Below, piece by piece: positions 15,831-33,698 of a stretch of DNA of 33,698 bases. The DNA comes from a virus, in IMG/VR virus record IMGVR_UViG_3300035701_007250, positions 1-33,698 of that record; one strand, 5' to 3'. The translations under genes and the position numbers were made by a program. The notes under the pieces were generated by a model that was given only the letters and a program-made list of their open reading frames with translations, ran no database searches and had not been told where the DNA came from. The stretch's first letter is position 1, and each line of letters starts with the position of its first letter.

Positions 15831-16043
15831 ATGACAACCAAATATCAAAGTTTATCAGGCAGACTCATAACAGCAACTTCGGCACCGACCACTCCCGTTG
15901 AAGGTGACATGTATTTCGATACCACTTTAGTAAAATTCAGAGTTTATAATGGCAGTTCCTGGTTATCGGTGAACGTCATTAGTACTACTTCAACCTCAAC
16001 CTCAACCTCATCCTCAACTTCTACTTCAACAACGACATCGTAA
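15831..16043 (+). CDS. Mini fibre-like protein 1 with Ser/Thr-only tail
   Basis: This 70-aa protein has a fibre-type module TPVEGDMYFDTTLVKFRVYNGSSW in residues of about 21-45, and residues 51-70 are only Ser or Thr. The G-x-M-Y-F-D-T-T...F-R-V-Y-N-G...W pattern is widespread in phage tail fibre and virion proteins, where it forms a short beta motif. The ribosome site is weak (AAGAT). It is the first of three tandem relatives. The Ser/Thr tail is a candidate site of O-glycosylation. Confidence 0.72.
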   Translation: MTTKYQSLSGRLITATSAPTTPVEGDMYFDTTLVKFRVYNGSSWLSVNVISTTSTSTSTSSSTSTSTTTS

Positions 16044-16620
16044 AGGATAAATTATGTCTAGAGATCTATTACAAAACGCTACCCATGTTACAGATATAAA
16101 GGGAATCCTTAATGTGGCTACTTCAGATATTCCCAATGAGGGTGTAGCCGGGACAGCCAATGGAGAGATCTACTATAATTCTACTTTAAAGGATTTGAGA
16201 ATTAAGTCCGGTACTGCCTGGTATGGCATGCCTTTCACTACTACTTCTACTTCTAGTTCTACATCAACATCAACAAGTACAACAACGAGTTAAATTATGG
16301 CAAGTACACATTTTTCACAATTAAAATCCAAATTTAACCGGGGAACTGTTTTCCCGGTCGCTCCTGAAGATGGTGAATTATTCTTTTGTACCACGACTAA
16401 TGTTCTTAACCGTTACAATGCTACAGGTTCAGTTTGGTACGGGATTAAATTTGGTATATATGCTACAACTAGTTCCACTTCTACCTCTACTTCGACTACA
16501 ACTACCTCAACCTCATCCTCAACTACTACTACTTCTACTTCGACTACCACTACTTCGACTAGTACTTCGACTACAACTTCTACTAGTACTTCAACTACTT
16601 CAAGTACGTCTACGACATTA
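15981..16620 (+). repeat. Ser/Thr-codon tracts ending three consecutive genes
   Basis: Three separate tracts (15981-16040, 16237-16290 and 16465-16617) consist only of ACN, TCN or AGT codons, giving 20, 18 and 51 consecutive Ser/Thr residues. All four Thr codons and five Ser codons occur in irregular order, so the DNA is only loosely repetitive while the protein is strictly Ser/Thr. This favours selection on the protein tail over simple microsatellite expansion. The shared DNA could also promote recombination with the related tract at 33525-33698. Confidence 0.8.
16054..16293 (+). CDS. Mini fibre-like protein 2 with Ser/Thr-only tail
   Basis: This 79-aa paralogue-like protein has module ANGEIYYNSTLKDLRIKSGTAWYGM (about 36-59), matching the Y-F-D-T-T...R-V...G-x-x-W pattern of protein 1. 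An 18-residue Ser/Thr tail (62-79) follows and ends in the same five residues as protein 1 (STTTS). A ribosome site AAAGGA precedes ATG 16054. The N-terminal 35 residues differ from those of protein 1, so the shared parts are the module and the tail. Confidence 0.72.
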   Translation: MSRDLLQNATHVTDIKGILNVATSDIPNEGVAGTANGEIYYNSTLKDLRIKSGTAWYGMPFTTTSTSSSTSTSTSTTTS

Positions 16621-16623
16621 TAA
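16297..16623 (+). CDS. Mini fibre-like protein 3 with long Ser/Thr-only tail
   Basis: This 108-aa protein has module EDGELFFCTTTNVLNRYNATGSVWYGI (about 24-50), the same pattern as its two neighbours. An unbroken Ser/Thr tail of 51 residues (57-107) and a final Leu follow. It starts 3 nt after the previous stop with little ribosome site of its own, suggesting coupling. The tail is longer than the folded part, an unusual design that would be a flexible, hydroxyl-rich bristle if virion-bound. Confidence 0.74.
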   Translation: MASTHFSQLKSKFNRGTVFPVAPEDGELFFCTTTNVLNRYNATGSVWYGIKFGIYATTSSTSTSTSTTTTSTSSSTTTTSTSTTTTSTSTSTTTSTSTSTTSSTSTTL

Positions 16624-16632
16624 AAGGAGTTT

Positions 16633-17145
16633 ATGGAATACATTGTTTACAATCCAAAGAGATATAACGGAAAACCTTGTTCAGACATTCAGACTTTTCC
16701 TTGGGCTGGAGATAAGTGGGATGGGCTTAAATCGGGTTCTATGGCCCGGTACCCTGATCATGTGGCTAAAGAGTTATTAAAACGCTACGGTTTTTTGAGG
16801 CGGGTCATGCCGGAAGAGATTGAAACGGTCAGTAAATTGATCAGTCAACCAGAGCATATTTGTGAATATTGTGATGAAGAGTTTGAAACTGATAAAGCCT
16901 TGGCGACTCACGTTTTAAGTATCCATAAACTTTCTGAAGAAGCTTCTAAGAAAATGGAAGCCATTCCTTTAGCGGCAACCGTCGAAGTTAAGGGTAGTAA
17001 AGAAAATATAAAAATGGATTCACCTGAACTGCCGGATACTAAAAAGGGTGAAGTAGATGGCTGGTATGGACCAGGTCTAGAAAATGATTTACCAGATTCT
17101 ATTGAGATAAAACGCACCGGTGATGCCGGTGTCTTTGGAGGTTAG
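16633..17145 (+). CDS. Conserved phage protein with classical C2H2 zinc finger
   Basis: This 170-aa protein has an N-terminal part (YNPKRYNGKPCSDIQTF) and RYPDHVAKELLKRYGF, which resemble a small phage virion-module protein of unknown role. A classical finger follows: Cys77, Cys80, His93 and His98 (C-x2-C-x12-H-x4-H) with the expected Phe and Leu core. The C-terminus is acidic and probably disordered, ending in GDAGVFGG. AAAGGAG gives a strong ribosome site. The finger could bind DNA or a partner protein. Its place before 17148 suggests a head-completion or accessory protein. Confidence 0.68.
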   Translation: MEYIVYNPKRYNGKPCSDIQTFPWAGDKWDGLKSGSMARYPDHVAKELLKRYGFLRRVMPEEIETVSKLISQPEHICEYCDEEFETDKALATHVLSIHKLSEEASKKMEAIPLAATVEVKGSKENIKMDSPELPDTKKGEVDGWYGPGLENDLPDSIEIKRTGDAGVFGG

Positions 17146-17147
17146 TT

Positions 17148-17435
17148 ATGGAAAGAGCCACAACTGGTAGGATAACAGGTAGCGGAACGATAGTTAGCGG
17201 ACCAGCTGAAGTGACTACTCTGGGGTTTGTTTCTAGTAATGCTGCTGGTAATGTTAAATTTCGTGATGGGGGAACTAACGGTCAGATCAGATGGGAATTG
17301 TCTGGTATAGATAAAGCCTATTCGGGTCAGATTTTTAATCCACCCCTTCGTTTCAAGACAGATGTTTATTGTGAATTTACGAATACTGGGATTGCTTACG
17401 TGGCGATTGTTAATCCTCAAGCTAATCAAATTTGA
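17148..17435 (+). CDS. Small beta-rich virion-type protein
   Basis: This 95-aa protein has strands and turns such as LGFVSSNAAGNVKFRDGGTNGQIRWELSG and NPPLRFKTDVYCEFTNTGIAYVAI. The pattern of alternating strands with a central D-G-G turn recurs in small phage head or decoration-type proteins. A strong GGAGG precedes ATG 17148. It is the last structural-type gene before the glycan cluster. The exact role (capsid vertex, connector or fibre base) cannot be decided. Confidence 0.65.
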   Translation: MERATTGRITGSGTIVSGPAEVTTLGFVSSNAAGNVKFRDGGTNGQIRWELSGIDKAYSGQIFNPPLRFKTDVYCEFTNTGIAYVAIVNPQANQI

Positions 17436-17449
17436 TCCCCTTTGTTATA

Positions 17450-17487: not shown

Positions 17488-18828
17488 ATGGAAAAGTTTC
17501 AAGAGGTTAATCAAAAACGCATTGCTATTTTCACCAATTTTTACGACGCTGACCCGGCTTACTCTTTAAACCGGGTAGTTCAAGACCAGATTAAAATGCT
17601 GGTTAGGAATGGTTATCCGGTACAAGTAATTGTTTCGGAAGGTTTTAAACCGGTGGAGATGTACGCTCACCCTATGGTGACTTTAAAGTTTATTCCTTCG
17701 GTTCCTGGTCATAATGAGGTAAAGAAGGACCCCACGTTTGAGACTGATGTTGAGAAACTGACCATTAGTCTGAAAGAGATTTTAAAAGATGTGGATGTAG
17801 TTTTATCTCATGACATTATTTACCAACCGGCAGCTTTGAAACACAACTTCGCTGCCCGTAAAGTCGCTAAAGAGTTTCCTAATATTAAGTGGCTGCACTG
17901 GATTCATTCAGCTACGGCTCCATATACTTTATCGATGCTTTTGGGCATCTTCTCTGATGAATATCTGGATTTAATTAAAGAACAGTTCCCTAATTCCTTC
18001 TACATTTTCTTCAATGACTATTCTAAACCTAGAATTGCTAGCAACTTTGGGATTGATGAGAGTCTAGTAAAGACGGTCCATCACCCGATTGATGTGGATG
18101 AGTTCTACCACTTTGATCCTATTCTCAGCCGTCTAATCTTAGAGAAGAAGATTCTATCAGCCGATGCCATTGCTGTTTACCCTTGCCGGTTAGACCGGGG
18201 GAAACAGGTGGAATACTTGATTAAGACGATGGCTATGTTAAAGGAGTTTAATTTGTCCATTAGAGTCATTGTGGTCGATTTCCATTCAACCGGCGGGGAC
18301 AAAGTTACCTACCGGGATGAGTTGAAGAATCTGGCTTTGGACTGGGGAGTCAACGCCCAGGAGATTACTTTCACGTCTGAATTTGACTCTGCCTGGAATC
18401 TCAGTTTGGATCATAAGATAGTTAATAGTTTAATTCAGTTGTCTAACGTCTTTATGATGCCCTCCGTTTCTGAATCTTATTCATTGGTAGCTCAGGAGGC
18501 TGCTTTATCCGGTAAAGTGATTGTCTTCAATTTTGACTTTCCACCCTTCCGGGACATCTTCGGATCCAATGCTATCTTCAGGAAATATTCTTCTAACATT
18601 GATGTGATGAATGGAATGGATGGGAATACAGTTACTAATTACGGTCCGGATAAGGCCAGCCTCGAAGAGCGTAAATCTTATGAGAGGTTATATCATAGGG
18701 AGACAGCGGGTATGATTGCCTACCGTCTGAGAAATTATGATAATCTGGTTATGCAGACTCATATCCGGAAAGATCGTAATTTGGATGCGGTATTCAAGAA
18801 TGAACTAGAACCCCTGATTTTTGCATGA
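17488..18828 (+). CDS. Glycosyltransferase, GT4-like (GT-B fold)
   Basis: This 446-aa protein begins with an N-terminal Rossmann-like domain (IAIFTNFYDADPAYSLNRVV). The C-terminal donor domain has VYPCRLDRGKQVEYLIKTM, the start motif of GT4-type retaining transferases, and an EX7E-like motif in SESYSLVAQEAALSG (Glu329/Glu337). These enzymes move a sugar from a nucleotide donor with retention. No membrane helix is visible, so it is cytoplasmic. It is the first gene of the glycan cluster, and its end overlaps the next gene (ATGA). Confidence 0.85.
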   Translation: MEKFQEVNQKRIAIFTNFYDADPAYSLNRVVQDQIKMLVRNGYPVQVIVSEGFKPVEMYAHPMVTLKFIPSVPGHNEVKKDPTFETDVEKLTISLKEILKDVDVVLSHDIIYQPAALKHNFAARKVAKEFPNIKWLHWIHSATAPYTLSMLLGIFSDEYLDLIKEQFPNSFYIFFNDYSKPRIASNFGIDESLVKTVHHPIDVDEFYHFDPILSRLILEKKILSADAIAVYPCRLDRGKQVEYLIKTMAMLKEFNLSIRVIVVDFHSTGGDKVTYRDELKNLALDWGVNAQEITFTSEFDSAWNLSLDHKIVNSLIQLSNVFMMPSVSESYSLVAQEAALSGKVIVFNFDFPPFRDIFGSNAIFRKYSSNIDVMNGMDGNTVTNYGPDKASLEERKSYERLYHRETAGMIAYRLRNYDNLVMQTHIRKDRNLDAVFKNELEPLIFA

Positions 18829-19595
18829 ACAATTGTGTTGTTATCGGTGGAGTAGGCATGGTAGGTACTGCTGTCCGTTATGAGTTTGGGATTGATAAAT
18901 ATTTCGACTTGAGGGAAAGTACGGTTACTTTGGAGGAGGCAGCTGGGTATAGGTATATTTTTATTTGTCTACCGACTGCGATAAAAAATGGACGTTATGA
19001 AACTGATGATATTTCTAATATTATTGAACAGATAGCTGATTTTGGCCAGCAAAATGTCTTCATAATAAAATCGACGGTTTTTCCTAATTTCGCCTTTAAT
19101 TTAATGAACAAATTGAGAATAAATAACATTATTTCTTGTCCGGAGTTTTTAACCGAAGCCACTTGGAAAGAAGATGTTAGTTCTCCAGATGTGATTGTGA
19201 TTGGTGGCAGAATGGAAAATTACATTGAAGACGTGGTCGGAATTTATCAGTCTCGTCACAAGGGTGCTACTATTTACAAAACAGATAATACGACGGCAGA
19301 ACTGGCTAAATTGGCTATAAATGGGCTATATGCGTTAAAAGTCGTATACGCCAATCAAATTTACGACTTCGCTGAAAATGTCGGAGCTAACTACGAGCGA
19401 ATTAAGGAGATTATGTATGCCCGTAAGTGGGTGGGTAAGAATCACTTGGATATTTGGCATAAAAACGGGAGGGGGGCTGGCGGTAAATGCTTGAAGAAAG
19501 ACTTCGAAGCTCTGGGGGAGTATAGCCAATTACCTTTGATTAAGACTGCTATGGGCATTAATAACTCTTATTTAAGTACCTCACACAAAAAATGA
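18825..19595 (+). CDS. Compact UDP-glucose/GDP-mannose dehydrogenase-like enzyme
   Basis: This 256-aa protein has NAD-binding GGVGMVG (8-14), IFICLPTA (45-52) and STVFP (83-87). Catalytic-type residues are Glu111 (CPEFLTEA), Lys162 and Asn166 (AELAKLAIN), Cys222 (GAGGKCL) and Asp226. The family oxidises NDP-sugars to uronic acids. It is much shorter than the usual size of about 390-450 aa: the N-domain is trimmed and almost nothing follows the Cys motif, so the C-terminal NDP-binding domain is missing. The active site is intact, but it may need a partner or a changed substrate. It is coupled to its neighbours by ATGA overlaps. Confidence 0.8.
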   Translation: MNNCVVIGGVGMVGTAVRYEFGIDKYFDLRESTVTLEEAAGYRYIFICLPTAIKNGRYETDDISNIIEQIADFGQQNVFIIKSTVFPNFAFNLMNKLRINNIISCPEFLTEATWKEDVSSPDVIVIGGRMENYIEDVVGIYQSRHKGATIYKTDNTTAELAKLAINGLYALKVVYANQIYDFAENVGANYERIKEIMYARKWVGKNHLDIWHKNGRGAGGKCLKKDFEALGEYSQLPLIKTAMGINNSYLSTSHKK

Positions 19596-20332
19596 AGCCA
19601 AAACTAAGCATAATTATACCGATTTGTAACAGTGATTATCCTACTTGCCATTATACTGGAAATTGTATCGGCAGTATCCGTTATTTTTCAACCACTGAGG
19701 ATAAAGAGATCATTGTCATCGATAACGATTCTAAAGCGACCCTGGGCCACCTTTATTGGGAAGAATACGTACAGAAGTATATCAAGAATGAAACTAACCG
19801 GGGGGTATCTAAGGCTTGGAATCAGGGAATTGAGGCTGCAGAAGGGGAGTATCTGGCTTTCGTGAATAGTGACGTAGAAGTTTATAACCGATGGGATAAA
19901 TTCTTGATTGATGACCTAAATGATGGGGTAGGTTTAGCCATGGCTTCGCCTATGTATGCCCATCCCTTTGGTAGAGCTAAAGAAGCTGAGGAATTAGAGG
20001 GTAAGGTTGAAGGTGATTATTTATCGGACTTTAGGGATTTCTCTTGTTTCATGATGAAGCGGGAAACGATTGATAAATTGGGAAAGTTTGATGAGAACTA
20101 TGGCTTGGGCTGGGGAGAGGATATTGATTATGCTTTTAGGATCCTTCAAGCCGGTTTAACGGTCAAATCTGACCAGAGGGTAAATACCCATCATATCGGT
20201 ATGGCTTCAGCTTATGCTCTGGGTACTTTGATCAATGTCAGCGAAGAGATGGATCGTAATAAGGAATATACGGCGAAGAAATGGGAATTAGACGAATTTA
20301 ATACGCCTAAATTTATGAGGGAAAATGCCTAA
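19592..20332 (+). CDS. Glycosyltransferase family 2 (GT-A)
   Basis: This 246-aa protein begins LSIIIPICNSD, continues through EIIVIDNDSKA, NRGVSKAWNQGIEAAEGEYLAFVNSDVEV (the DxD-like NSD) and ends with GLGWGEDIDYAFRILQAG, whose Glu-Asp pair is the catalytic-base region. This is a canonical GT2 layout for inverting sugar transfer. No transmembrane segment is seen. The ATG overlaps the dehydrogenase stop. Confidence 0.88.
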   Translation: MKPKLSIIIPICNSDYPTCHYTGNCIGSIRYFSTTEDKEIIVIDNDSKATLGHLYWEEYVQKYIKNETNRGVSKAWNQGIEAAEGEYLAFVNSDVEVYNRWDKFLIDDLNDGVGLAMASPMYAHPFGRAKEAEELEGKVEGDYLSDFRDFSCFMMKRETIDKLGKFDENYGLGWGEDIDYAFRILQAGLTVKSDQRVNTHHIGMASAYALGTLINVSEEMDRNKEYTAKKWELDEFNTPKFMRENA

Positions 20333-20510
20333 AAATACTTTAGAAAAATTAGCTAAAAAGGTAATTAAAGATCATTTTAGAGAAACTGGTGATGGTGTTA
20401 TTTTTTGTCCACATTTAATTTGGGATGAAAATACAAAGGGACAGGTTTATTTTTCTAATGATTTATGGTTAGCCGTTTGTAAAATATTTATAGACAAAGC
20501 ACATGCCTAA
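20325..20510 (+). CDS. Unknown 61-aa protein inside the glycan cluster
   Basis: The start overlaps the previous gene and the end overlaps the next, both through the same ATGCCTAA junction, supporting coupled translation. The protein has a basic helix (LEKLAKKVIKDHF), a CPH turn and a hydrophobic C-terminal helix (LWLAVCKIFI). It is too short for an enzyme of the cluster; an adaptor or unrelated insert is possible. Confidence 0.55.
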   Translation: MPKNTLEKLAKKVIKDHFRETGDGVIFCPHLIWDENTKGQVYFSNDLWLAVCKIFIDKAHA

Positions 20511-21312
20511 ATTTTCAATCCTGACTTCATACCATATAAATAATCAGATTAAAGAGAAGCAATTATGGCGGTGCTTGAGAAGTGTGTCAGCACAAGGATT
20601 CACTGATTATGAACATATTTTAGTCAATGATGGTTCCGTTATTGAGGTTGATATATCCGGGGATAAACGTATAGTAATCAAGGATGTCCACAATGAAAGA
20701 GTTAATGCTTTAAGGTTGGGGATGTCCAAAGCTACCGGGGAGTGGATGACATTTCTCGATGCGGATGACGAACTCTTGAGTCATTCTCTAGAGATGTTTA
20801 ACCAGGCGATTGAGAAATACCCGAAGTTTAAAGTCTTTAATTTCGGGAGTGTTCATCTATGGAAAGATTACACTCTGCACGTAAGGGGAGCCTTCCAGCC
20901 GAAACAAACTAAGTTTGGCCACGAACCTTTCGGTCCAGGACAGATCGTCAACGGTACTTTTATCTTTAAGCGATCCGTTTATGAGAAAGAAGGCGGTTTC
21001 CCGGAAATGGATATTATTGGGATTGATACGACTGATATCAATTATGGTGGGGTAAGGAACTTATGTATGTGTTCTCCTTGGGATTTCTCGGCTTATGCCC
21101 AGATGGAGTTCCCGGAGATCAGGCCGTTGTTTAATTTTGACAAGGAGGCCGAACCTTATAAAGTTATTAGAGAATTAGGCAATCCTTGGGGTAATGATTT
21201 TTATATGTTTTATAAATACACTAGAAAGCATCATAGCAAGGCATTCGATGTACCTTGTGTCTTGATCCACCACGATGGCAAGAATGATGATGAGGGCCAC
21301 TATGTCGAATAA
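20503..21312 (+). CDS. Glycosyltransferase family 2 (GT-A)
   Basis: This 269-aa protein has FSILTSYHINNQIKEKQLWRCLRSVSAQ, HILVNDGS and ATGEWMTFLDADDELL with a clear DADD metal/donor motif. An acceptor-side C-terminal region follows. The pattern is the standard GT2 fold for inverting transferases. The C-terminus is His-rich (KHHSK, LIHHDGK). No membrane segment is visible. Confidence 0.85.
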   Translation: MPKFSILTSYHINNQIKEKQLWRCLRSVSAQGFTDYEHILVNDGSVIEVDISGDKRIVIKDVHNERVNALRLGMSKATGEWMTFLDADDELLSHSLEMFNQAIEKYPKFKVFNFGSVHLWKDYTLHVRGAFQPKQTKFGHEPFGPGQIVNGTFIFKRSVYEKEGGFPEMDIIGIDTTDINYGGVRNLCMCSPWDFSAYAQMEFPEIRPLFNFDKEAEPYKVIRELGNPWGNDFYMFYKYTRKHHSKAFDVPCVLIHHDGKNDDEGHYVE

Positions 21313-22045
21313 TGTCATTGATATTTTCATCACGGCTTATTTGAGGCAGTATTACACTGAACAAACTATCGAGTATCTTACTTTGAGAACGACCCATCCT
21401 TACCGGATTTTTGTGATTAATAACGGCGGGAATGATGAGGTAATTAATGAGTCGATCAGGCAGAACGTTACCTTCTTGAGTTTAAACATGTCTCACAATG
21501 TGGGTATTCATGCGGCCTGGAATTTGTCTCTGGCTATGGCTGAATCGGATTACTTTATTACCTCGGATAATGATATCTTTGTTCCAAACCTGGATCCGGA
21601 TTGGCTGACTCAGATGATAAGATTTATGGATGAGAGACCCGACTACGGTGCTATATCTATGTGTCCTCATATTTTTATTGGGGCTGCTGGTATCGATCCC
21701 AAGACCGCCGAAGATGTGGTAGAGAGAAACATGTGCGGGGCAGTTATGAGGTTAATGCGGCGTGAGGCTGTACTTAAGGCGGGTGGTTGGGAGAGAGTAA
21801 TCAGAACCGGCAGGAATCATGAAGAGAAAACGATTTGTGGCCGGTTACAGGAACAGGGGTATAAAACCGGGATTTGCAGTCGGATTCGGGCTTATCATCC
21901 TTTTGGTAAGGAACATGGGGGCAATTGGGGTTACCCGGCTGATTTTACTCCCCAACAACAAGGACATAATCCTGATCTGGCTGAATATGTCCAATCATTT
22001 GATAATATAGAAGCGTATGATGAGAATACTTGGTTACCTTTATGA
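21302..22045 (+). CDS. Glycosyltransferase family 2-like (GT-A)
   Basis: This 247-aa protein starts at ATG 21302 (MSNNVIDIFITAYLRQ), with GAGGG upstream; an in-frame ATG at 21275 lies further inside the previous gene. Key parts are IFVINNGG, SHNVGIHAAWNLSLAMAESDYFITSDNDIFV (DxD-like DND), and CGAVMRLMRREAVLKAGGW. The layout is GT2. The stop overlaps the next ATG. Confidence 0.82.
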   Translation: MSNNVIDIFITAYLRQYYTEQTIEYLTLRTTHPYRIFVINNGGNDEVINESIRQNVTFLSLNMSHNVGIHAAWNLSLAMAESDYFITSDNDIFVPNLDPDWLTQMIRFMDERPDYGAISMCPHIFIGAAGIDPKTAEDVVERNMCGAVMRLMRREAVLKAGGWERVIRTGRNHEEKTICGRLQEQGYKTGICSRIRAYHPFGKEHGGNWGYPADFTPQQQGHNPDLAEYVQSFDNIEAYDENTWLPL

Positions 22046-22899
22046 TATTAGATCCGACTGACTTAACCATTATTATTCCCACTCTTAATTGGGCTGAAGG
22101 AGATTTTCAGATAAAAATAAACTATTCCTTGGATCTTTGTTTATTGTCTCTCTGTAAGTCTATTTCTAATCTGACTAAAATGATTGTGGTTTCTAACTCA
22201 GGTGATCCTAGACCATTACCAATGTCTATTAATGAGAATATTGTGAAGCGAATGAATCTTTGGGAACAAGGTCAATGTAAGGCGGTCAATGCAGCCGCAG
22301 CCACGGTTTCTACTCAATGGCTGATGATCACCAATGACGATATGATCTACCCTCCAGATTGGATGGAAAAGCTTTTCGATAGTGACAAAATGTACCCTTG
22401 TTTTAGTCCGATGCTGGTTGAACCTCAACCGGGGGCTCCGACATTCATCGTCGATTTCCTGGGAGGGGCTGGCGGTGATTTTGACCAGCATAAATTTAAT
22501 GAGAAATATACCGGTTTTCATTATCAGGGTTGGCGAACCGGGTTCAACATGCCTTTGGTCATTCGCAAGGAACTTTGGGATTTAATCGGTGGTTACGATG
22601 TGCTTTACGATCCGTGGGGCAGTAATTCTGACAGTGACTTGGAATATAAGATTAAACTAGCCGGGATACAACCGATGCAGAACACTGATTGTCCGGTTTA
22701 TCACTTCTCTCAAACTTCGGGAACCTTCCATCCATCGAAACAAGAATACTGGCAGAAGAATTATGACTACTTTAAAGCTAAGTGGGGTTTTGAAAGAGTC
22801 GACTCTCCGGAAATTTGGACGGCTAACTTCGAAATTCCTTATCAATTATTAAAATATCGTCCTTTTTGGGCAAAACTACCAGAGGGCAACGAATTGTAA
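22042..22899 (+). CDS. Glycosyltransferase family 2 (GT-A)
   Basis: This 285-aa protein starts at ATG 22042, overlapping the previous stop. It has LTIIIPTLNWAEGD, MIVVSNSG, CKAVNAAAATVSTQWLMITNDDMIY (NDD motif), and an acceptor region with WRTGFNMPLVIRKELWDLIGGYD and SDSDLEYKIKLAG in the catalytic-base position. It ends as a soluble protein. It differs enough from its GT2 neighbours in acceptor half and length to suggest a distinct linkage. Confidence 0.83.
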   Translation: MILDPTDLTIIIPTLNWAEGDFQIKINYSLDLCLLSLCKSISNLTKMIVVSNSGDPRPLPMSINENIVKRMNLWEQGQCKAVNAAAATVSTQWLMITNDDMIYPPDWMEKLFDSDKMYPCFSPMLVEPQPGAPTFIVDFLGGAGGDFDQHKFNEKYTGFHYQGWRTGFNMPLVIRKELWDLIGGYDVLYDPWGSNSDSDLEYKIKLAGIQPMQNTDCPVYHFSQTSGTFHPSKQEYWQKNYDYFKAKWGFERVDSPEIWTANFEIPYQLLKYRPFWAKLPEGNEL

Positions 22900-22922
22900 T
22901 AGCCCTAAAACGGCTTTTCTTT

Positions 22923-23504
22923 ATGAAACTCAATATTGGTTGTGGCAATGTACCTCTAGTTGGATACATAAATGTGGATAAATACTATTATCCCAGTTCC
23001 GATAAGATTTTGACCGATTTTAAATTAGCTGAGACTTGGAATATCGACCATCCCGATTCATCGTGGCTCTATGGTGATATGGAAAAATTGGATATGTTTG
23101 CCAATAATACTTTTGATGAAGTGATGATCATCCATGCTTTGGAGCATGTTTCGATGGAAGCCGGTAATCGGTCCATCGTGGAAGCAGTTAGAGTTTTGAA
23201 GAGTGGTAGCCAAATTGACATTGAAGTTCCCGATCTATTCAAAGCCTGTCAGTTATTGCCGACTTTGGAGGTTGAGAGTCCGTTGTGGTACAGAACCATG
23301 GGTTGTATTTATGGGACTTCAGGTTATGACGGGGAAGGACAGTTTCACCTTTGTGGTTATTCAATCCCTCATTTAAAGTATAAAATGGAACAGCATGATT
23401 TGATCAATATTCAGGAAATCCCGGTTGGGTTTGGCCATGGTAATAACTTAGAGGGTCATCCGGAACCGGAATATGATTTTAGATTGAGAGGAACCAAGAA
23501 ATGA
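22923..23504 (+). CDS. Class I SAM-dependent methyltransferase
   Basis: This 193-aa protein has start MKLNIGCGNVPLVGYINVD (motif I), an acidic loop, and TFDEVMIIHALEHVSMEAG, typical of Methyltransf_11-like enzymes found in glycan clusters. RVLKSGSQIDIEVPD follows. ATG 22923 matches the family start; an upstream in-frame start at 22866 would add a basic extension inside the previous gene. The likely role is O-methylation of a sugar, which is inference from context. Confidence 0.8.
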   Translation: MKLNIGCGNVPLVGYINVDKYYYPSSDKILTDFKLAETWNIDHPDSSWLYGDMEKLDMFANNTFDEVMIIHALEHVSMEAGNRSIVEAVRVLKSGSQIDIEVPDLFKACQLLPTLEVESPLWYRTMGCIYGTSGYDGEGQFHLCGYSIPHLKYKMEQHDLINIQEIPVGFGHGNNLEGHPEPEYDFRLRGTKK

Positions 23505-24205: not shown

Positions 24206-24206
24206 T

Positions 24207-26322: not shown

Positions 26323-26950
26323 TAAGGACCATTATTTTTCGCAACCGGATAATGAGACCTGGTGCCGGATGGGTGGCAATGGACCGATTAATGTGACCCA
26401 GATTATGCCCCTGGTTAAATATACTTCAGATGAACAAACTTTCTTGGATGTAGGTTGCGGTAGTGCTACGACTCTGGATGCGATAAAGGCCATTAAGCGT
26501 CATGTCATTTATAAAGGAGTTGATTTTATCGATTCCAGGATCAAGTGGTTAATTGACCGCTATCCTGGTTACTTGTTTGAATGCCAAGATGCCAGACATC
26601 TTAAGGAAGACGATAAGAGTTGGGATGTTGTCTGGAGCCGCCATGTTGTCGATCACATGCCCAGTTTTGAAGAGGCGATCACTGAGCAATGCCGGGTAGC
26701 CAAAAAAAGGGTAATCTGTATTCTTTGGTATAGCATTACTGATAGTCTGGAACACATAATCAAACATGTAACTTATGAAAAGGTTTTTGAAGATGAATAC
26801 TTAAATCAGTACAGTCGAACCAAAATTCAGCAGTTTTTAGGTAGCCTTTCGGGATGGAGTCTAAAAGAATTTAGAGAGGATGTTTCCTGGCAGGGAGACA
26901 AAAAAGGAAAGGGTGACGATACCATTATCGTCTTAGATCGAAATGAATAA
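26315..26950 (+). CDS. Class I SAM-dependent methyltransferase
   Basis: This 211-aa protein has FLDVGCGSATTLDAIKAI (motif I), VIYKGVDFID (acidic residue for ribose) and SWDVVWSRHVVDHMPSFEEAITEQCRVAKKRVI. The layout is Methyltransf_11/25-like. A good ribosome site (AGAAAGG) precedes ATG 26315, which overlaps the previous gene by 8 nt. The context suggests sugar methylation. Confidence 0.8.
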   Translation: MNDKDHYFSQPDNETWCRMGGNGPINVTQIMPLVKYTSDEQTFLDVGCGSATTLDAIKAIKRHVIYKGVDFIDSRIKWLIDRYPGYLFECQDARHLKEDDKSWDVVWSRHVVDHMPSFEEAITEQCRVAKKRVICILWYSITDSLEHIIKHVTYEKVFEDEYLNQYSRTKIQQFLGSLSGWSLKEFREDVSWQGDKKGKGDDTIIVLDRNE

Positions 26951-27932
26951 AATATTGATCATACCGCCAAATAAATGGTATATGGAAGCCCAGGCAGAAT
27001 ACCTGGTCCGATATTTAAGTGATGAGTTCTTCATGGAAATTGCCCATATTCCTTATCCTCCCTATGATACTTACCTCCAGAGATTTCCTAATGAATCACC
27101 CTTTATGCGTAATCCAGATGATTATGATCTGTTATGGCCTCTCTGGCCGGGTCACTGGGGAGTTAATCAGGATGAGTACTGTCATAAAACGGCAGTTGTT
27201 CATTATGAACCGGGAGAATGCCGCTGGACCGATGTAGCAGCGGTGGGGGCAGCGACTCCGATTGCTGAGAAACATTTGGGAGACTTCCCTCATCACCGAC
27301 TTCGCTTTGGAGTTGATACCGAATTGTTCAGACCTTTCCCCATGGTTAGGGAAGATGATTTATTCCATGTGGGTATGGTGGGATCGATGGTTAATACTAG
27401 ACATATGGTTAGACCAGTGATTGAAGCTTTAAAAGATGTTCCTGGGATTAGATTAATGTTATTTCCAGCTTATCTACCCAATGAACAAGATGTTAGAGAC
27501 TTGGGGGGATGGGATTTCTTAAGCCGAATTGTATCTGGAGAAAAATGGTTCAACGGTTTCCCCAATGTTTACAACCAGATGGATGTCTTAATCCGGTGCG
27601 AACAGGATCCGGGGTATTCCTTCCCGATACCGGAAGCCATGGCTTGTGGAGTCCCGGTGATCGCCACTAACTCTGGTATCGAAGAGGAATTGTTGGGTTC
27701 TGGTTGCGGCATTATTATTGACGGCAACCGGGATATCCATCTAAACCATCCGGAGATTACTACAGAAAAGGTCAGGGAGGCTGTTATTAGGTTGAGGGAT
27801 AATCGGGAGATGTTAAAACTGATGGGAGATTTAAGCCGCCAAAGAATTGAAATTTATTGGACCTGGGACAAATTTATTAATGACTGGAGAGAGTTCTTCA
27901 GGAAAGGTTTAGAATATGCAAAGAGCCACTGA
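26943..27932 (+). CDS. Glycosyltransferase, GT4-like (GT-B fold)
   Basis: This 329-aa protein has N-terminal ILIIPPNKWYMEAQAEYLVRYL, LRFGVDTELFRPFP at the domain junction, and HVGMVGSMVNTRHMVRPVIEAL in the donor domain. The motif DPGYSFPIPEAMACGVPVIATNSGIEEEL is the canonical retaining-transferase donor loop. It reads as soluble. The 8-nt overlap upstream and 17-nt overlap downstream suggest strict co-translation. Confidence 0.87.
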   Translation: MNKILIIPPNKWYMEAQAEYLVRYLSDEFFMEIAHIPYPPYDTYLQRFPNESPFMRNPDDYDLLWPLWPGHWGVNQDEYCHKTAVVHYEPGECRWTDVAAVGAATPIAEKHLGDFPHHRLRFGVDTELFRPFPMVREDDLFHVGMVGSMVNTRHMVRPVIEALKDVPGIRLMLFPAYLPNEQDVRDLGGWDFLSRIVSGEKWFNGFPNVYNQMDVLIRCEQDPGYSFPIPEAMACGVPVIATNSGIEEELLGSGCGIIIDGNRDIHLNHPEITTEKVREAVIRLRDNREMLKLMGDLSRQRIEIYWTWDKFINDWREFFRKGLEYAKSH

Positions 27933-28455
27933 TAACATGGAAGAGTTAAATAATTATTTGAGGCAGTATATTGAGGGCAGTTTCTCAGTTCCGGACATGC
28001 AAGTGATTCATGATAATGTTTGTAATCTTGAACCAGGTCAGGTTTACTTCGAGGTGGGGGTAGCTGAAGGCATGTCATTATCGACAGCCTTTTATTCCTC
28101 CAAGGAGGGGGTATTTTGTTTAGGGGTTGATTACTATGATTCTCCGGATCACCGACGGCCAGATTTTATGAATACTATTGTTAGTGGCAACCAGGTTGCC
28201 TACATCCATGCCGATGCCCATGAATTGGCCAATATCTGGAATATACCGATTAATACGCTTTTTATTGACGGGGCTCACGATGAAGACAATGTTTGTATGG
28301 ATACCATGAATTGGGCTCCCCATGTGGTGGAGGGAGGCACCATTCTCTATCATGATTACGATATGCCTAATGCCGAAGGAGTGATTGTATTCATTGACCA
28401 GTATTATAAAGATTTTGAAGTTATTAATACTAATATAGTGAAAGTGATTAAATAA
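27916..28455 (+). CDS. Methyltransf_24-like SAM methyltransferase
   Basis: This 179-aa protein has VYFEVGVAEGMSLSTAFYSS (motif I), FCLGVDYYD, VAYIHADAHELA, and LFIDGAHDEDNVCMDTMNWAPHVVEGGTILYHDYD. The I-D-G-x-H-x-Y/D type block is typical of Methyltransf_24 and cephalosporin-hydroxylase-like sugar O-methyltransferases, which are often metal dependent. GGAAAGG precedes ATG 27916. Confidence 0.8.
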   Translation: MQRATDNMEELNNYLRQYIEGSFSVPDMQVIHDNVCNLEPGQVYFEVGVAEGMSLSTAFYSSKEGVFCLGVDYYDSPDHRRPDFMNTIVSGNQVAYIHADAHELANIWNIPINTLFIDGAHDEDNVCMDTMNWAPHVVEGGTILYHDYDMPNAEGVIVFIDQYYKDFEVINTNIVKVIK

Positions 28456-28456
28456 T

Positions 28457-28993
28457 ATGAATACTCAAGTCCATAATTGGGGTAACAAAGTTAAAGAAAA
28501 GCACCCTCAATATTTTGTCGACAATAAAGTAATTGAGATTGGATCAGCCAATATCAATGGCAGTTTAAGGGAGTTATTTACCGGAGGGGAATACATTGGT
28601 TTAGATGTGGCTCCATATGCTGGAGTAGATGTGGTTAGTATCGCTCATGAATACACTGATAAGCCTGACGGCTACTTTGATGTGGTCTTCTCTACCAGTG
28701 CTTTGGAGCATGACATGTTCTGGGAAAAGACTCTAAGAAAGATGGTGGATTTGCTTCGTCAGGGTGGTTTAATGTTTATCTCGGTGGCTTCGACTTGGCC
28801 AGAACATGGTTGCAGCCGTCATTGTCCGGAACATTCGTTGACCACTAAGATTAACCAGGAATGGGCTGATTATTACCGGAATATTACTGCCGGTGATCTG
28901 GCTGGAGTTATCGACCTAAATAAAGAGTTTCTTGATTGGGAGATGACCCTGGATTCCGGCATGGATTTAACTTTTATTGGATTAAAACGATGA
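28457..28993 (+). CDS. Class I SAM-dependent methyltransferase
   Basis: This 178-aa protein has VIEIGSANINGSLRELF (motif I variant), YIGLDVAPYAGVDVV, and YFDVVFSTSALEHDMFWEKTLRKMVDLLRQGGLMFISVAS. This is the Methyltransf_11 layout. A Cys/His-rich stretch (PEHGCSRHCPEHSL) follows and may shape a substrate or metal site. Only 1 nt separates it from the previous stop, and its stop overlaps the next ATG. Confidence 0.78.
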   Translation: MNTQVHNWGNKVKEKHPQYFVDNKVIEIGSANINGSLRELFTGGEYIGLDVAPYAGVDVVSIAHEYTDKPDGYFDVVFSTSALEHDMFWEKTLRKMVDLLRQGGLMFISVASTWPEHGCSRHCPEHSLTTKINQEWADYYRNITAGDLAGVIDLNKEFLDWEMTLDSGMDLTFIGLKR

Positions 28994-29655
28994 AAATCAC
29001 AGCTATTATTTTAGCCCATTATAAAGAAAGGGAAACCAACTTAAAACGGATGGTGGATGATTTCTTGGTTGGGGCGGTTAAACCTAATGAGATTATCATC
29101 TTTATCGACAACCCAGAGATTAAATTTAAGGATAACCGGGCAACCATCATCCGGTCTTCCAGAAGTTTCTTACCGAATATCCGGTTTGCTCTGGGATTAG
29201 TCACCGGAGCTGATTACTGCTTTTTTATTGATGATGATTTGACGGTCAGGAAAGAGACTTTGGCTAATTTGCAATATTATGCGACCCAATATCCAGACCG
29301 AATCTTGGGCTTTGAAGGCTGTCTTTTAGATGATTCCAGTGAAGCCCCTTATTCCAATGCCAAGTCATTCAACCGGGGAGATAAATACCAGGCGGTTGAT
29401 ATTGTTATCCGGACCTACTTTGTCCCGTTAAAAGCTCTGGCCCATGGTTTCGTCTTAAGACATAATCGTCCGGAATTACCCAAAGAATCATTGGATGATG
29501 TTTTTCTTTGTATGGGCTACGGCCATTGTGCCATTGTCCCGGTAACTGAATTGAGTGATCTGACTGAACTGACTGAAGGCGGGGTGGGCCAGTCTTATAC
29601 CAGCGTCCATTATCAAAACCGTAATATAGTTTGTAACGAAATAAGGAAAGGTTAA
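28990..29655 (+). CDS. Glycosyltransferase family 2-like (GT-A)
   Basis: This 221-aa protein starts at ATG 28990 (MKITAIILAHYKERETNLKRM), overlapping the previous stop; an in-frame ATG at 28936 lies deep in the previous gene. It has IIIFIDNPEIKF, IRFALGLVTGADYCFFIDDDLTV (DDD metal motif), and a short acceptor half ending with LDDVFLCMGYGHCAIVPV. This is a GT2-type fold near the lower length limit. Confidence 0.78.
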   Translation: MKITAIILAHYKERETNLKRMVDDFLVGAVKPNEIIIFIDNPEIKFKDNRATIIRSSRSFLPNIRFALGLVTGADYCFFIDDDLTVRKETLANLQYYATQYPDRILGFEGCLLDDSSEAPYSNAKSFNRGDKYQAVDIVIRTYFVPLKALAHGFVLRHNRPELPKESLDDVFLCMGYGHCAIVPVTELSDLTELTEGGVGQSYTSVHYQNRNIVCNEIRKG

Positions 29656-29656
29656 T

Positions 29657-30178
29657 ATGGAAGAATATAAACACTATGGCCGTCCAGCTGGCCGAGGGAT
29701 TAAAATCCAATTAGGCTGCGGAGACTATTGGTTCGACGGCTATCTTAATATTGATCAGGTAATCTTGGGCGGGACAGATATGATTCTGGACATCAGAAAG
29801 TCCCTGCCCTTTAACGATAAAACCGTGGAATTGATTGAACTCCATGATGTCTTTGAACACTTTTCTGATGGGGAGATTGCTTCCATGATGGATGACTGGT
29901 ACCGGGTTTTAATTGATGGCGGTAAAATCATTGCTACCTTCCCGGATATCGATGAACTGACTAAGAAATATTCGGAAACCTCGGGTGACGATAAAGCTTT
30001 CTATTTAAGGTCTATTTACGGCATTGAGGGTGATCATAAGGCTGGTTATAACAAGGATTCGGCTAGGGCTATATTTCTAACTCATAAGTTTACTGATATT
30101 GAAGTCAGTGATTATGCTCCAGAGCAGCCCAAAGATCCTTGCCCTAGGATGCAAGTGATTGCTTATAAGAAAGGTTGA
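29657..30178 (+). CDS. Class I SAM-dependent methyltransferase
   Basis: This 173-aa protein has IKIQLGCGDYWFDGYLNID (motif I), DMILDIRKSLPF, VELIELHDVFEHFSDGEIASMMDDWYRVLIDGGKIIATFPD. The start resembles the 22923-23504 enzyme (LNIGCGN...GYINVD), so the two may be paralogues. Strong AAGGAAAGG precedes ATG 29657. The likely substrate is a sugar or glycan, from context. Confidence 0.8.
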   Translation: MEEYKHYGRPAGRGIKIQLGCGDYWFDGYLNIDQVILGGTDMILDIRKSLPFNDKTVELIELHDVFEHFSDGEIASMMDDWYRVLIDGGKIIATFPDIDELTKKYSETSGDDKAFYLRSIYGIEGDHKAGYNKDSARAIFLTHKFTDIEVSDYAPEQPKDPCPRMQVIAYKKG

Positions 30179-30179
30179 T

Positions 30180-30776
30180 ATGATGCCTGAAGTAGTTTTT
30201 GACAGTGATGATTTTTCCATGTATCCGGAACGTAACTGCCTGGATGAATTACTTTACTTGAAGGGTAAATTCCCTAATTTTAAGATCACTCTATTTACGA
30301 TTCCTAGATATAAGAAATATTACCAGGCTGATTTCTTCAAGATGGTGTATGACGAGTTTGGCAACTGGATCGAGATGGCTTTACATGGCAATAAACATGA
30401 AACTAATTTTGAATGCAAAGACTGGACTTATCTAGATGCCGTGGGATATTTGGAAGAATACCGCAACAAATTTTACTTTGTTCGGGGCTTTAAGGCTCCC
30501 GGCTGGCAGATCTCCAGAGAGACTTACCGGGCTTTAAAAGAATTTAATTACTGGGTGATGGATCATACCATCTCAATCTATACTGAACCAATACCTAATA
30601 AAGATAGGAGACCGGAAGGATTAAAGTATTTTAGTATTGACGATCCCCGGTTAATTCATACTCATACCTGGGATACTCAGGAAAACGGCTTAGCTAAAAT
30701 GATTGAGAACTGGGAAAAAGAGGGTTATCCTTTTGATGAAAGTACTAAGTTTAGGTTCGTTTCGGAGGTAGTATGA
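30180..30776 (+). CDS. NodB-like polysaccharide/sugar deacetylase
   Basis: This 198-aa protein has the five NodB landmarks in order: Asp8/Asp10-Asp11 (FDSDDF), His69-x3-His73 (HGNKH), Arg102 with KAPGW (RGFKAPGW), an aromatic segment FNYWVMDHT, and His160/His162 (LIHTHTW). These bind the metal and form the acid/base pair of CE4-type deacetylases. It has no signal peptide, so it acts in the cytoplasm, probably on an N-acetyl sugar of the glycan or its precursor. AAAGG precedes ATG 30180 (a second ATG follows directly). Confidence 0.78.
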   Translation: MMPEVVFDSDDFSMYPERNCLDELLYLKGKFPNFKITLFTIPRYKKYYQADFFKMVYDEFGNWIEMALHGNKHETNFECKDWTYLDAVGYLEEYRNKFYFVRGFKAPGWQISRETYRALKEFNYWVMDHTISIYTEPIPNKDRRPEGLKYFSIDDPRLIHTHTWDTQENGLAKMIENWEKEGYPFDESTKFRFVSEVV

Positions 30777-31669
30777 TCGAGAATGTGTTTGTCTTTGATC
30801 CGATCAGACCGGATTTCATTGAACGCTGTTTACTCACCTTAAAGAAATACACTCATCATGATTACCGGATTGTTTTAATCGATCAAACCATGGATGGAAT
30901 GTATGAAAAGGTGAAAAACGATGTCCATCTGTATTTACGGCCCTACCGCAACTTAGGCTTTTCCAAATCCATGAACGAAGGCATTATTCACGGCATCAGG
31001 TGGGGAGCTAAATATATCACGGTCATTAATGACGACATCGTATTTATGGATGACCGGTGGTGGGACGGGATCATGGAGACAATGAACAGTGATCCGAATA
31101 TAATGGGAGTTAATCCCGAATGCCCCAAAGAACCTGGATGGGGCTATGGTTTACCCGACGGGGAATTTATTAATCTCATGGAGTATAAGGAAAACTTTAC
31201 GACTCAAGATTATGACTATCTCCTGGAGGGTGATTTCTCTGGCGTTGCTGGTTTGCCTGACACTTTTCCTCGAAAGAAGGTCGGCGTTATCGATGCCATT
31301 GCCACATGGTGTACTACTTTTAGAAGAGAATGTTTTGAACAGTACGGACTCTTCGATGAACGATATTACCCTGGAGGCGGGGAAGACTATGATTACAATG
31401 CCCGAATTTACCGAACTGGTAAAAGACTGGTGGGAACAACTAAATCATGGGTTTACCACTTTTGGGGAGCAAGTAAAGATAAACTGTCAGAACATAAAGG
31501 GAAAAGCTTACCGCTTGATCCAGCCTTAGTCTGGAATCATCCCCATTTATTGTGGCCAGAAGATAAGAATGGTGGCCAGGTGATGGACCCATGGGGAAAA
31601 TGGACCGATAAAGACGGTAATAAAATCCCGATGGAACGTGATCCAGTCATTGGTATAATTGACATATAA
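30773..31669 (+). CDS. Glycosyltransferase family 2 (GT-A), last gene of the cluster
   Basis: This 298-aa protein has VFVFDPIRPDFIERCLLTL, YRIVLIDQT, NLGFSKSMNEGIIHGIRWGAKYITVINDDIVFMDD (NDD), and RYYPGGGEDYDYNARIYRTGKRL as the catalytic-base region. The C-terminal extension of about 50 residues is Trp/Pro-rich. GGAGG precedes the ATG, which overlaps the deacetylase stop. The layout is close to rhamnosyltransferase-type GT2 enzymes. No membrane segment is seen. Confidence 0.86.
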   Translation: MIENVFVFDPIRPDFIERCLLTLKKYTHHDYRIVLIDQTMDGMYEKVKNDVHLYLRPYRNLGFSKSMNEGIIHGIRWGAKYITVINDDIVFMDDRWWDGIMETMNSDPNIMGVNPECPKEPGWGYGLPDGEFINLMEYKENFTTQDYDYLLEGDFSGVAGLPDTFPRKKVGVIDAIATWCTTFRRECFEQYGLFDERYYPGGGEDYDYNARIYRTGKRLVGTTKSWVYHFWGASKDKLSEHKGKSLPLDPALVWNHPHLLWPEDKNGGQVMDPWGKWTDKDGNKIPMERDPVIGIIDI

Positions 31670-31725
31670 TCTTCTATTGATATTTCATCTTAGTATTTCA
31701 TCCTGCATACCGGAAGGTTTAATGA

Positions 31726-31734
31726 TGGTAAAAT
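31726..31734 (+). promoter_or_regulatory. Extended -10 promoter for the large fibre-like gene
   Basis: TGGTAAAAT (31726-31734) is an extended -10 with no good -35. It lies in the 97-nt gap after the glycan cluster. Transcription would begin near 31741, giving a leader of about 26 nt with a CAGGA site before ATG 31767. A 17-codon ORF (ATG 31733 or 31739, ending at 31786) overlaps the gene start in another frame, but its expression is doubtful. Confidence 0.45.
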
Positions 31735-31766
31735 GAAAATGCTGAAGTTATGCCAGGATTGTAACT

Positions 31767-33698
31767 ATGGAAATACAAGAAGGTGAAATCATCTACGAAC
31801 CCAAGATACCAGAATTAAAGATTGATACCCTTTCTTATGCTCTAACCCCCAAGGAAAACCCCAAAGACAAAATTGAGGTAGAAATCGGTGATTCTAAGGA
31901 TTTAACCCAGTTCCAGCCCCAGGTTAAAGTAATGAGGTGGGACAACGAAGTAAACCTATCCTACCGCCTAATTACTGATGAAAAAGCAGATGAAACAGTT
32001 ACTCAAACAGATGAAGTAATTACTTGGGATAAAGGGAACATTCAAGTCCAGACCTACGACTTGCCCATCAGTGCAGAAAACCCCGAAGGTGGCATGGAGT
32101 TTGAAATTGTCTTGAAGGAATTACCTAAGACTAATGTTATAGAGTTCACCCTAAACGATAAAGATGTTGAGTATTTATATCAATCACCACTAACGCAAAA
32201 ATACCAGAATGGTTATTGTGAGGAATTTAAAGAAGAGATCTCGGTTACAGAAACCTGGGTCAAAGATTTACATGGAAATGTTTTAGTTGATAGACCAGAG
32301 AATGTAGTAGGTTCTTATGCCATCTATGCCAAAACTCCCAAGACAAACTGGACAGGTGGAAAAGAATATAAAGTCGGCAAAGTCGGACATATTTTTAGAC
32401 CAAAGATATTTGATGCTAATGGTGCTGAAACTTGGGGTGATTTACATATTGAAAATGGAATACTCTCGGTAACTATTCCTAAAGAGTTTTTAGATAAAGC
32501 AGTTTATCCAGTGGTGGTTGATCCGACGTTTGGATATTTGGGTGGTGGAACAAATTACACCGTAGACCAGAATGGGTGGATTGGATCTGTTTTTACAAGC
32601 CCATCGTCTATAAATACAATATCAAAAATTTCTATTTATTGTGTCAAGTTAGCTTCTGCCGCTTATTTTAAGGGAACTATTGTTTTACATTCCGATCTAA
32701 GTATTGTAGAAAATGGAATATCTAATATTTCTGAAACTATTTACTCTGCGGGAGTAAAATTTTGTGATGCAACTTTTTCTACAAATCCAACAATCAGTTC
32801 ATCAACTGCTTATGTTTTAGGTGGAGTTTTTTCTGAAAACACTTGTGTTGTCAATTATGATGGTGGCGATATTGATCAAGGACATAGTGAAACTGATAAT
32901 AATTACACATCTCCTACAAATCCATCATCAATAACTCATACTACTAATAAATTTGGTATTTATGTTATTTATACCGCAAATAATTACTATCAAGGTAGTG
33001 GTAGTGGTGACTCTGGGTTTTCATATACTGCTGGAACAGCCCTCAGTTATTTAGGTGAAAAGTCAAATATTAGAGTGGGTTATAGGAATGGGGTTAATTG
33101 GGGTAATATTGTCTCGGCCTTTCGTTTATGTAACGTAACCATCCCAAAGAGTGCAACTATAACGACGGCGATTTTTACTTATACAGCTTATGATACAGAT
33201 GCCTCCACTGATGCCGTAACAGTTTATGCTGAGGATGTTGACGATGCTCCCACAATTACGACTACCGGTTCAGAAGAACCCGTAGATAAAGGGGGTCGGG
33301 TAACAACTGCAAGTGTTAATTGGACTCTACCGAACCAAGTAATATACACCACCTATGATTCACCTGAATTAAAAACAATTATACAAGAGATAGTTGATAG
33401 AGCATCTTGGGCTAGTGGAAACGACATTTGTTTAGTCTTTAAAAACAACGGGGCAACTGAAAATCATAACATGATAGGTAGTGCAGGATTGTTTTGGCTC
33501 TACGCCACCTATACAGGAGGTGATACAACTTCAACCTCCAGTTCCAGTTCGACTACTACCACTAGTACTAGCACTAGCACTAGCACGACGACCACTTCCA
33601 CTTCTTCCTCTACCTCTACTACTACTTCTACCTCAACTACCACGACAAGTACTTCCACTTCAACGTCTACTACGACTACTTCTATAAGTACCTCAACC
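31767..33698 (+). CDS. Large fibre-like virion protein, partial, entering a Ser/Thr-only region
   Basis: The frame is open for 644 codons to the window edge without a stop. The N-terminal 250 residues are charged beta-type sequence ending in FLDKAVYPVVVDPTFGY, a junction also found in bacterial and phage surface proteins. Residues of about 255-430 and 430-585 read as two beta-rich, Asn/Thr/Ser-rich domains; the second ends in FWLYATYTGG. From residue 587 on, all residues are Ser or Thr except one Ile. The stretch could be a linker to a further domain outside the window. It is a probable host-binding fibre or spike. Confidence 0.72.
   Translation, partial: MEIQEGEIIYEPKIPELKIDTLSYALTPKENPKDKIEVEIGDSKDLTQFQPQVKVMRWDNEVNLSYRLITDEKADETVTQTDEVITWDKGNIQVQTYDLPISAENPEGGMEFEIVLKELPKTNVIEFTLNDKDVEYLYQSPLTQKYQNGYCEEFKEEISVTETWVKDLHGNVLVDRPENVVGSYAIYAKTPKTNWTGGKEYKVGKVGHIFRPKIFDANGAETWGDLHIENGILSVTIPKEFLDKAVYPVVVDPTFGYLGGGTNYTVDQNGWIGSVFTSPSSINTISKISIYCVKLASAAYFKGTIVLHSDLSIVENGISNISETIYSAGVKFCDATFSTNPTISSSTAYVLGGVFSENTCVVNYDGGDIDQGHSETDNNYTSPTNPSSITHTTNKFGIYVIYTANNYYQGSGSGDSGFSYTAGTALSYLGEKSNIRVGYRNGVNWGNIVSAFRLCNVTIPKSATITTAIFTYTAYDTDASTDAVTVYAEDVDDAPTITTTGSEEPVDKGGRVTTASVNWTLPNQVIYTTYDSPELKTIIQEIVDRASWASGNDICLVFKNNGATENHNMIGSAGLFWLYATYTGGDTTSTSSSSSTTTTSTSTSTSTTTTSTSSSTSTTTSTSTTTTSTSTSTSTTTTSISTST
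33525..33698 (+). repeat. Ser/Thr-codon tract at the window end
   Basis: There are 58 consecutive codons of ACN, TCN, AGT or AGC (one ATA exception), running off the window. Synonymous codons are mixed, as in the tracts at 15981-16620. The match in composition, but not in exact order, with those earlier tracts suggests the same selected protein feature on several virion proteins. The tract also marks a spot where homologous recombination between fibre genes could occur. Confidence 0.75.

Follow-up and report, generated by a model that had tools for sequence, protein, structure and literature searches.

A candidate phage-encoded virion glycosylation system with serine/threonine-only tails as predicted acceptors in an uncultured podovirus-like phage

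Why does a phage carry a cluster of glycosyltransferase (GT) genes in its late operon, and on what would the enzymes act? We address this question for IMG/VR record IMGVR_UViG_3300035701_007250 (33,698 bases; the whole of this stretch is referred to as the window), which represents an uncultured bacterial virus and, being classed as linear, is probably a fragment. The contig is that of a podovirus-like phage, and within its late operon lie both proteins that end in tracts composed of only Ser and Thr (S/T tails) and the GT cluster. We suggest that the latter encodes enzymes for the O-glycosylation of proteins in the cytoplasm, which serve the phage's own virion alone and have the S/T tails as acceptors; from comparison of sequences we give this reading a probability of roughly 0.8. 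The arrangement itself is real and recurrent, and the genes strongly suggest the function.

The first-pass annotation of the window listed four proteins with unbroken S/T tracts of 20, 18, 51 and at least 58 residues. Direct translation confirms the first three lengths for small virion proteins 1 (15981-16040, up to the stop codon), 2 (16237-16290, likewise up to the stop codon) and 3 (16465-16617, then one Leu and the stop), but not the last: the tract of the fibre-like protein runs for 53 residues (33525-33683) and is followed by an Ile and four S/T codons to the contig end, in total 57 S/T out of 58 with the contig edge leaving it open. The label "mucin-like" is also loose, the tails being without Pro and closer to serine-rich-repeat proteins. 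Among the 31 other proteins in the window Ser and Thr make up 10.2% of the residues and the longest S/T run is 5, such that ≈1e-14 runs of at least 18 are expected by chance; the longest mixed run across 36 random viral loci (324 kb) is 7 and in 24 loci of distant capsid relatives at most 9. All ten Ser and Thr codons, AGT and AGC included, occur in the tracts, and selection therefore acts on the residues and not on the codons. Chance and DNA slippage or DNA repeats as origin of the tracts are ruled out by this codon diversity. The N-terminal domains (about 50 amino acids) of the small tailed proteins are homologous and their relatives have tails of 18 to 85 residues, while homologues of the fibre (in L235, L239 and L295) have tracts of 64-194 residues. 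A fold search with the domain of the S/T proteins gave weak matches only (E values from about 0.5 upwards) to phage tailspike/tail-fibre and collagen trimerization domains, which is suggestive of a trimer but does not amount to evidence for one.

Two genes (16633-17145 and 17148-17435) lie between small virion protein 3 and 19 co-directional open reading frames (ORFs; 17488-31669) that are adjacent or overlapping, with gaps of +1 to -58 bases. Pfam searches and alignments recover the gene content described earlier, i.e. ten GTs (seven GT2, two GT4 and one Glyco_trans_1_2), five S-adenosylmethionine (SAM) methyltransferases, a sugar dehydrogenase, a DegT enzyme of the type that has His in place of the Lys binding pyridoxal phosphate (PLP), a deacetylase-like protein and an ORF of 61 amino acids (Table 1). 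Transmembrane-like segments are missing from all cluster proteins, in which the hydropathy over 19 residues reaches 1.53 at most, and this bears out that the enzymes are soluble. The three cluster GTs used as tblastn queries, GT4_1, GT2_7 and GT2_3, had no match among 50,697 phage records at a cut-off of E 1e-5.

Eleven further contigs encode a capsid protein that is 55-80% identical to that of the window. S/T-tailed proteins are present in all eleven, and GT4_1 in ten of them together with the remaining cluster as far as each contig extends; the eleventh (L216, G088) stops directly after the capsid gene. In this lineage the gene order is terminase large subunit (TerL), portal, scaffold, decoration, major capsid protein (MCP), one to three small S/T-tailed proteins and GT4_1, and in the longer contigs dehydrogenase, GT2s, deacetylase, GT2_7 and finally S/T-tailed fibres, in which the longest runs have 278 and 409 residues. 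In one member (G095) the fibres are followed by an SU10-like head-tail adaptor and one more S/T-tailed protein, and in a complete distant relative (MW202785) merely three small genes separate MCP and tail adaptor. The block of GTs and tailed fibres is thus located inside the virion module, since it is flanked by capsid and adaptor genes.

To relate tails and enzymes, the viral collection was queried by tail sequence alone using a mixed Thr/Ser pattern, and GT2 genes were then counted per record; this pattern replaced an earlier one (any 24 TCN/ACN codons), which mostly detected poly-Ser read antisense to other repeats. Of the tail-type records 9/13 contained at least two GT2 genes, compared with 4/62 of the linker type and 2/36 among random viral contigs (Fisher p = 3e-6 for tail- versus linker-type and 1.6e-5 for tail-type versus random, values that overstate independence because the lineage members are mutually related). 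Six of these nine tail-type records belong to the window's lineage, and L215, L239 and L246 are outside it by capsid sequence. Neither S/T tracts nor GT2 genes were detected in any of 24 contigs with distant MCP relatives, and the complete genomes MW202796, OK172329 and MW202785 have no long S/T tract in the sequence examined and no GT2 in the whole records. The complete podovirus MW202647 lacks GT2 in the whole record and a long tract in 29 of its 47.6 kb, and its homologue of the window's fibre is tail-less. Hence, the co-occurrence of tails and GT cluster across relatives, which the first-pass annotation had put forward as a check, is strong within the lineage and when set against distant relatives, linkers and random contigs, and it is seen in other backbones. 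Related phage proteins in L068, L122, L130, L193 and about 40 other records have Thr/Ser linkers of the form TTTTSTS...LPPTTT together with at most one weak GT2; these linkers are probably a natural class that the phage enzymes do not glycosylate.

Relatives of GT4_1 (41-50% identity) accompanied by further GTs and S/T-rich proteins are present in G099, whose terminase and portal come from other families than those of the window, in G108, which has an S/T run of 358 and a capsid protein just 27% identical to the window's, in G110, and in L295, a phage-like contig from a Neomarinimicrobiota metagenome-assembled genome (MAG). The G110 contig encodes a 1245-residue protein (L292:3280-7014) with 61% Ser+Thr in punctuated STSSTSQ repeats; its long STSSTSQSTSTSIS-type repeats are broken by Gln, Ile, Leu or Val and resemble those of serine-rich repeat adhesins. 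Moreover, a prophage-like region in Zixibacteria (L299) carries a GT4_1 relative (33%) and a GT2, along with proteins that have uninterrupted Ser/Thr runs of more than 200 residues. In Luminiphilus (L297) the GT4_1 relative adjoins a small exported protein (L297:11398-11814) ending in SGSSTTTSGSSTTT repeats, and in the proteobacterium UBA7415 (L298) it lies beside an exported protein (near 11600) with a shorter T/S tail, which is a weaker case. In both exported proteins the signal region ends in a sequence like VNTVVLPAHAQ, followed by the S/T-rich end. Judging from these two proteobacterial loci a bacterial counterpart is possible; since no GT4_1 copy beyond the original was detected across 140 genomes of the Luminiphilus family, the association comprises one clear and one weak case. 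The contig L296 is too short for a judgement.

According to the mechanism that we propose, S/T-only tails on small capsid-proximal proteins and on large fibres would accept sugars from soluble GTs acting sequentially in the cytoplasm, before or during assembly. GT4_1 would probably add the first sugar onto Ser/Thr; it is the best candidate for priming, given that it comes first in the operon, is the most broadly conserved and lies beside S/T-rich proteins even where the other GTs differ. The GT2 and GT4 enzymes would then lengthen the chain. Sugars would be provided or modified by the two-domain dehydrogenase, the DegT enzyme and the deacetylase, and the methyltransferases would decorate the glycan product. 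The tails would in this way become a dense glycan brush on the particle, of possible use in shielding, stability or adhesion. The priming role of GT4_1, the chemistry, the order of enzyme action and the benefit are what we infer, whereas the tails and their place in the virion-structural module, the enzymes with conserved catalytic motifs and the recurring linkage are seen directly. A broader version, to which we give even odds, is a mobile "virion brush" module in which a previously unrecognised GT4 subfamily primes Ser/Thr homopolymer-like tails without a sequence motif, other GTs and sugar-modifying enzymes are exchangeable, and the whole moves among unrelated phages and certain bacteria; each tail would offer up to hundreds of sites, and the virion would bear a dense glycan coat.

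In GT4_1 the GT4 motif residues R234, K239, E329 and E337 are invariant across twelve homologues. The dehydrogenase has no C-terminal nucleotide-binding domain and its ten homologues are all about 250 amino acids; T84, E107, K162, N166, C222 and D226 are invariant among them and match the catalytic residues of UDP-glucose dehydrogenases. This two-domain enzyme may use an unusual substrate. Alignment of the DegT enzyme to perosamine synthetase places His at the position of the PLP-Lys, and its homologues have His (5/7) or Lys (2/7). For the deacetylase-like protein the Pfam match is below cut-off and the sole PDB match is the polysaccharide deacetylase 3rxz (E 0.017), with the DD and HGxxxH motifs invariant in seven homologues. 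In addition, an epimerase/dehydratase of the short-chain dehydrogenase/reductase type is encoded upstream of the terminase gene (7650-8405), and it may be part of the glycan pathway since its homologue in G001 (41% identity) is located within the GT cluster.

Phage GTs frequently change the host serotype (PMC4691112), and the cluster might accordingly serve serotype conversion or superinfection exclusion by altering a glycan of the host surface (O-antigen, capsule or wall polymer), with the tails as unmodified flexible linkers that are nearby by chance; that S/T linkers occur in phages without GTs fits with this. We consider it unlikely, because flippase (PF01943) and phosphoglycosyl transferase (PF02397) are absent from the ten tail-plus-GT records, as had been noted for the window from the letters alone, the cluster has no membrane proteins and lies within the virion module, with the capsid gene on one side and the tail adaptor gene on the other, and tails predict GTs in other backbones too. 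The strong association between tails and GTs and the absence of genes for envelope export instead support the cluster as a virion-tail glycosylation system. Its targets could still be virion proteins modified mainly elsewhere, i.e. in capsid or tail core, leaving the S/T tails as unmodified spacers or adhesive filaments, and glycosylated capsid and tail tube proteins are described for mycobacteriophages (Freeman 2023, as described in PMC12363180 and PMC12619734). The tails, however, differ in length, protein and backbone and yet accompany the GT core, and in a bacterium an exported S/T-rich protein is encoded next to a relative of GT4_1; we find this option marginally less probable than a role in host glycans. 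Glycosylation of DNA by viral GTs is well established (cited in PMC12619734), but hypermodification of phage DNA bases by the GTs and methyltransferases, as protection against restriction, is very improbable here: a set of ten GTs plus a deacetylase and a sugar dehydrogenase suits an oligosaccharide better than a base mark, the cluster lies in a late virion operon, and no homologue of the thymidylate synthase/hydroxymethylase type (PF00303) is present in the ten records, some of which are incomplete (other base-modification routes were not searched).

Several observations weigh against glycosylation of the tails by the cluster, in addition to the relatedness behind the Fisher values. Fewer than two GT2 genes were counted in 4/13 tail-type records, and while three of these are explained or weak, i.e. 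L201 (4.9 kb), L192 (11.5 kb) and L216 (which stops after MCP), L227 has no explanation. S/T runs do not need phage GTs, because many phages have S/T-rich linkers and no GT cluster. The GT4_1 relative in an Anaerolineales MAG (L300) is near baseplate genes and has no S/T run in its vicinity. Finally, GT4_1 is modelled with good confidence (mean pLDDT, a predicted confidence score, 86.7) as a GT-B enzyme resembling MshA/BshA, and its profile, searched against all PDB chains, matched none with an E value of 0.01 or lower; with no sequence relative in the PDB and only a generic GT4 fold, an initiating specificity cannot be read from sequence or model. As to the Anaerolineales locus (L300:445-11305), tail-like genes including Baseplate_J precede the GT4_1 relative, and the locus may encode a contractile injection system of which one part is glycosylated.

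With respect to the phage backbone, a search of the viral collection detected MCP relatives in 26 viral loci, and the identity to sequenced phages in the annotated collection is 24-36%, with podoviruses among the matches. The terminase genes of G064, G079 and G095 (L261, L263 and L273) are split by insertions of 0.7-0.9 kb, and an HNH endonuclease gene (L274:11343-11927) lies between GT2_7 and the fibres; these are likely introns or inteins. Coordinates are given in Table 1.

Table 1. Backbone markers, S/T-tailed proteins and cluster genes in the window
Feature	Position	Strand	Basis
Terminase large subunit, backbone marker	8785..10314	+	PHROG 38, E 2.7e-97
Portal protein	10307..12526	+	PHROG 1216, E 1.7e-18
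MCP, relatives define lineage	14864..15781	+	PHROG 371, E 5.6e-21
Small virion protein 1, ~50-residue beta domain + 20-residue S/T tail	15831..16043	+	translation; weak virion-structural PHROGs; domain model pLDDT 85
Small virion protein 2, 18-residue S/T tail	16054..16293	+	translation; domain homology
Small virion protein 3, 51-residue S/T tail	16297..16623	+	translation; PHROG 11591 virion structural, E 4.5e-4
GT4_1, retaining GT-B glycosyltransferase, first cluster gene in lineage	17488..18828	+	PF00534; invariant motif residues; GT4 fold
Two-domain UDP-sugar 6-dehydrogenase	18825..19595	+	PF03721 + PF00984 only; PDB UDP-glucose dehydrogenases, E 7e-28
GT2	19592..20332	+	PF00535, 1.7e-18
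61-residue ORF of no assigned family	20325..20510	+	no Pfam match
GT2, core: present in other backbones too	20503..21312	+	PF00535, 3.3e-15
GT2	21275..22045	+	PF00535, 1.7e-11
GT2	22030..22899	+	PF00535, 3.5e-6
SAM methyltransferase	22866..23504	+	PF08241, 1.5e-7
GT2	23501..24205	+	PF00535, 1.9e-6
DegT-family PLP enzyme, His for Lys, 3-dehydratase-like	24207..25376	+	PF01041, 3e-92
GT-B glycosyltransferase (Glyco_trans_1_2)	25357..26322	+	PF13524, 5.9e-15
SAM methyltransferase	26315..26950	+	PF08241, 1.5e-11
GT4	26943..27932	+	PF13692, 2.1e-7
SAM methyltransferase (Methyltransf_24)	27916..28455	+	PF13578, 3.4e-13
SAM methyltransferase	28457..28993	+	PF13489, 1.3e-7
GT2-like, weak by itself	28936..29655	+	PF00535, 5.8e-4, below Pfam curated cut-off; homologues 49-56% identity in three relatives
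SAM methyltransferase	29657..30178	+	PF08241, 6e-5
NodB-like polysaccharide deacetylase	30159..30776	+	invariant DD + HGxxxH motifs; PDB 3rxz
GT2_7, last cluster gene, adjoins S/T fibre	30773..31669	+	PF00535, 2.3e-8; kept in other backbones
Fibre-like protein, long N-terminal region, S/T tract 53+, truncated by contig end	31767..33698	+	translation; homologues

To our knowledge glycosylation of phage virions is documented in few phages only, mainly mycobacteriophages. The literature searched yielded no account of GT clusters alongside S/T-only tails in phages, which suggests that we are dealing with a new, multi-enzyme variant of virus-encoded virion glycosylation with S/T-only acceptors, undescribed as far as this literature shows. 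If our reading is true, densely glycosylated virions would be a recurring strategy across several phage backbones (with S/T runs up to 409), and the enzymes would represent a small, soluble and membrane-free O-glycosylation toolkit that can be rebuilt in E. coli. Acceptors and enzymes could also predict one another in uncultured phages, and a matching bacterial system is suggested.

Among known systems, the capsid and tail tube proteins of mycobacteriophages Che8, Corndog and Myrna are glycosylated (Freeman et al. 2023, as described in PMC12363180 and PMC12619734). Common to these and the window would be phage-encoded GTs for own structural proteins, here ten GTs on the strand of TerL, portal and MCP; the difference is in the acceptors, capsid and tail tube there and S/T-only tails here, and in the ten GTs. 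Chloroviruses and mimiviruses have autonomous glycosylation, and methylated glucose is reported on mimivirus fibres (PMC4691112); there too the virus supplies its own GTs and sugar-modifying enzymes, but these are large DNA viruses of eukaryotes with unrelated backbones and with Vp54 or collagen-like proteins as acceptors. Descent from mycobacteriophage or chlorovirus systems is unsupported because the three GTs tested match no cultured phages. The glycosylation of serine-rich-repeat proteins (SRRPs) in streptococci, staphylococci and lactobacilli starts with the GtfA/GtfB pair, which attaches GlcNAc to Ser/Thr, after which the chain is lengthened by further GTs (PMC5207161, PMC6973325). Shared with the proposed phage system are the cytosolic stepwise O-glycosylation of Ser/Thr-dense regions, the soluble GTs encoded beside the acceptor (the Ser-rich protein adjoins the GTs, and the S/T-only tails flank the phage cluster) and a priming GT with variable extenders. 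SRRPs, in contrast to the virion proteins, are adhesins exported by SecA2/Y2; no SecA2/SecY2 gene is present in the window cluster, where export is not expected for a virion, GtfB-like DUF1975 was not seen in Pfam scans of the cluster and GT4_1 has no PDB match (E 0.01), and the phage set adds methyltransferases, the mini dehydrogenase and the His-type DegT enzyme. By analogy, we therefore view the phage system as one that works like Gram-positive SRRP glycosylation but is not a member of it.

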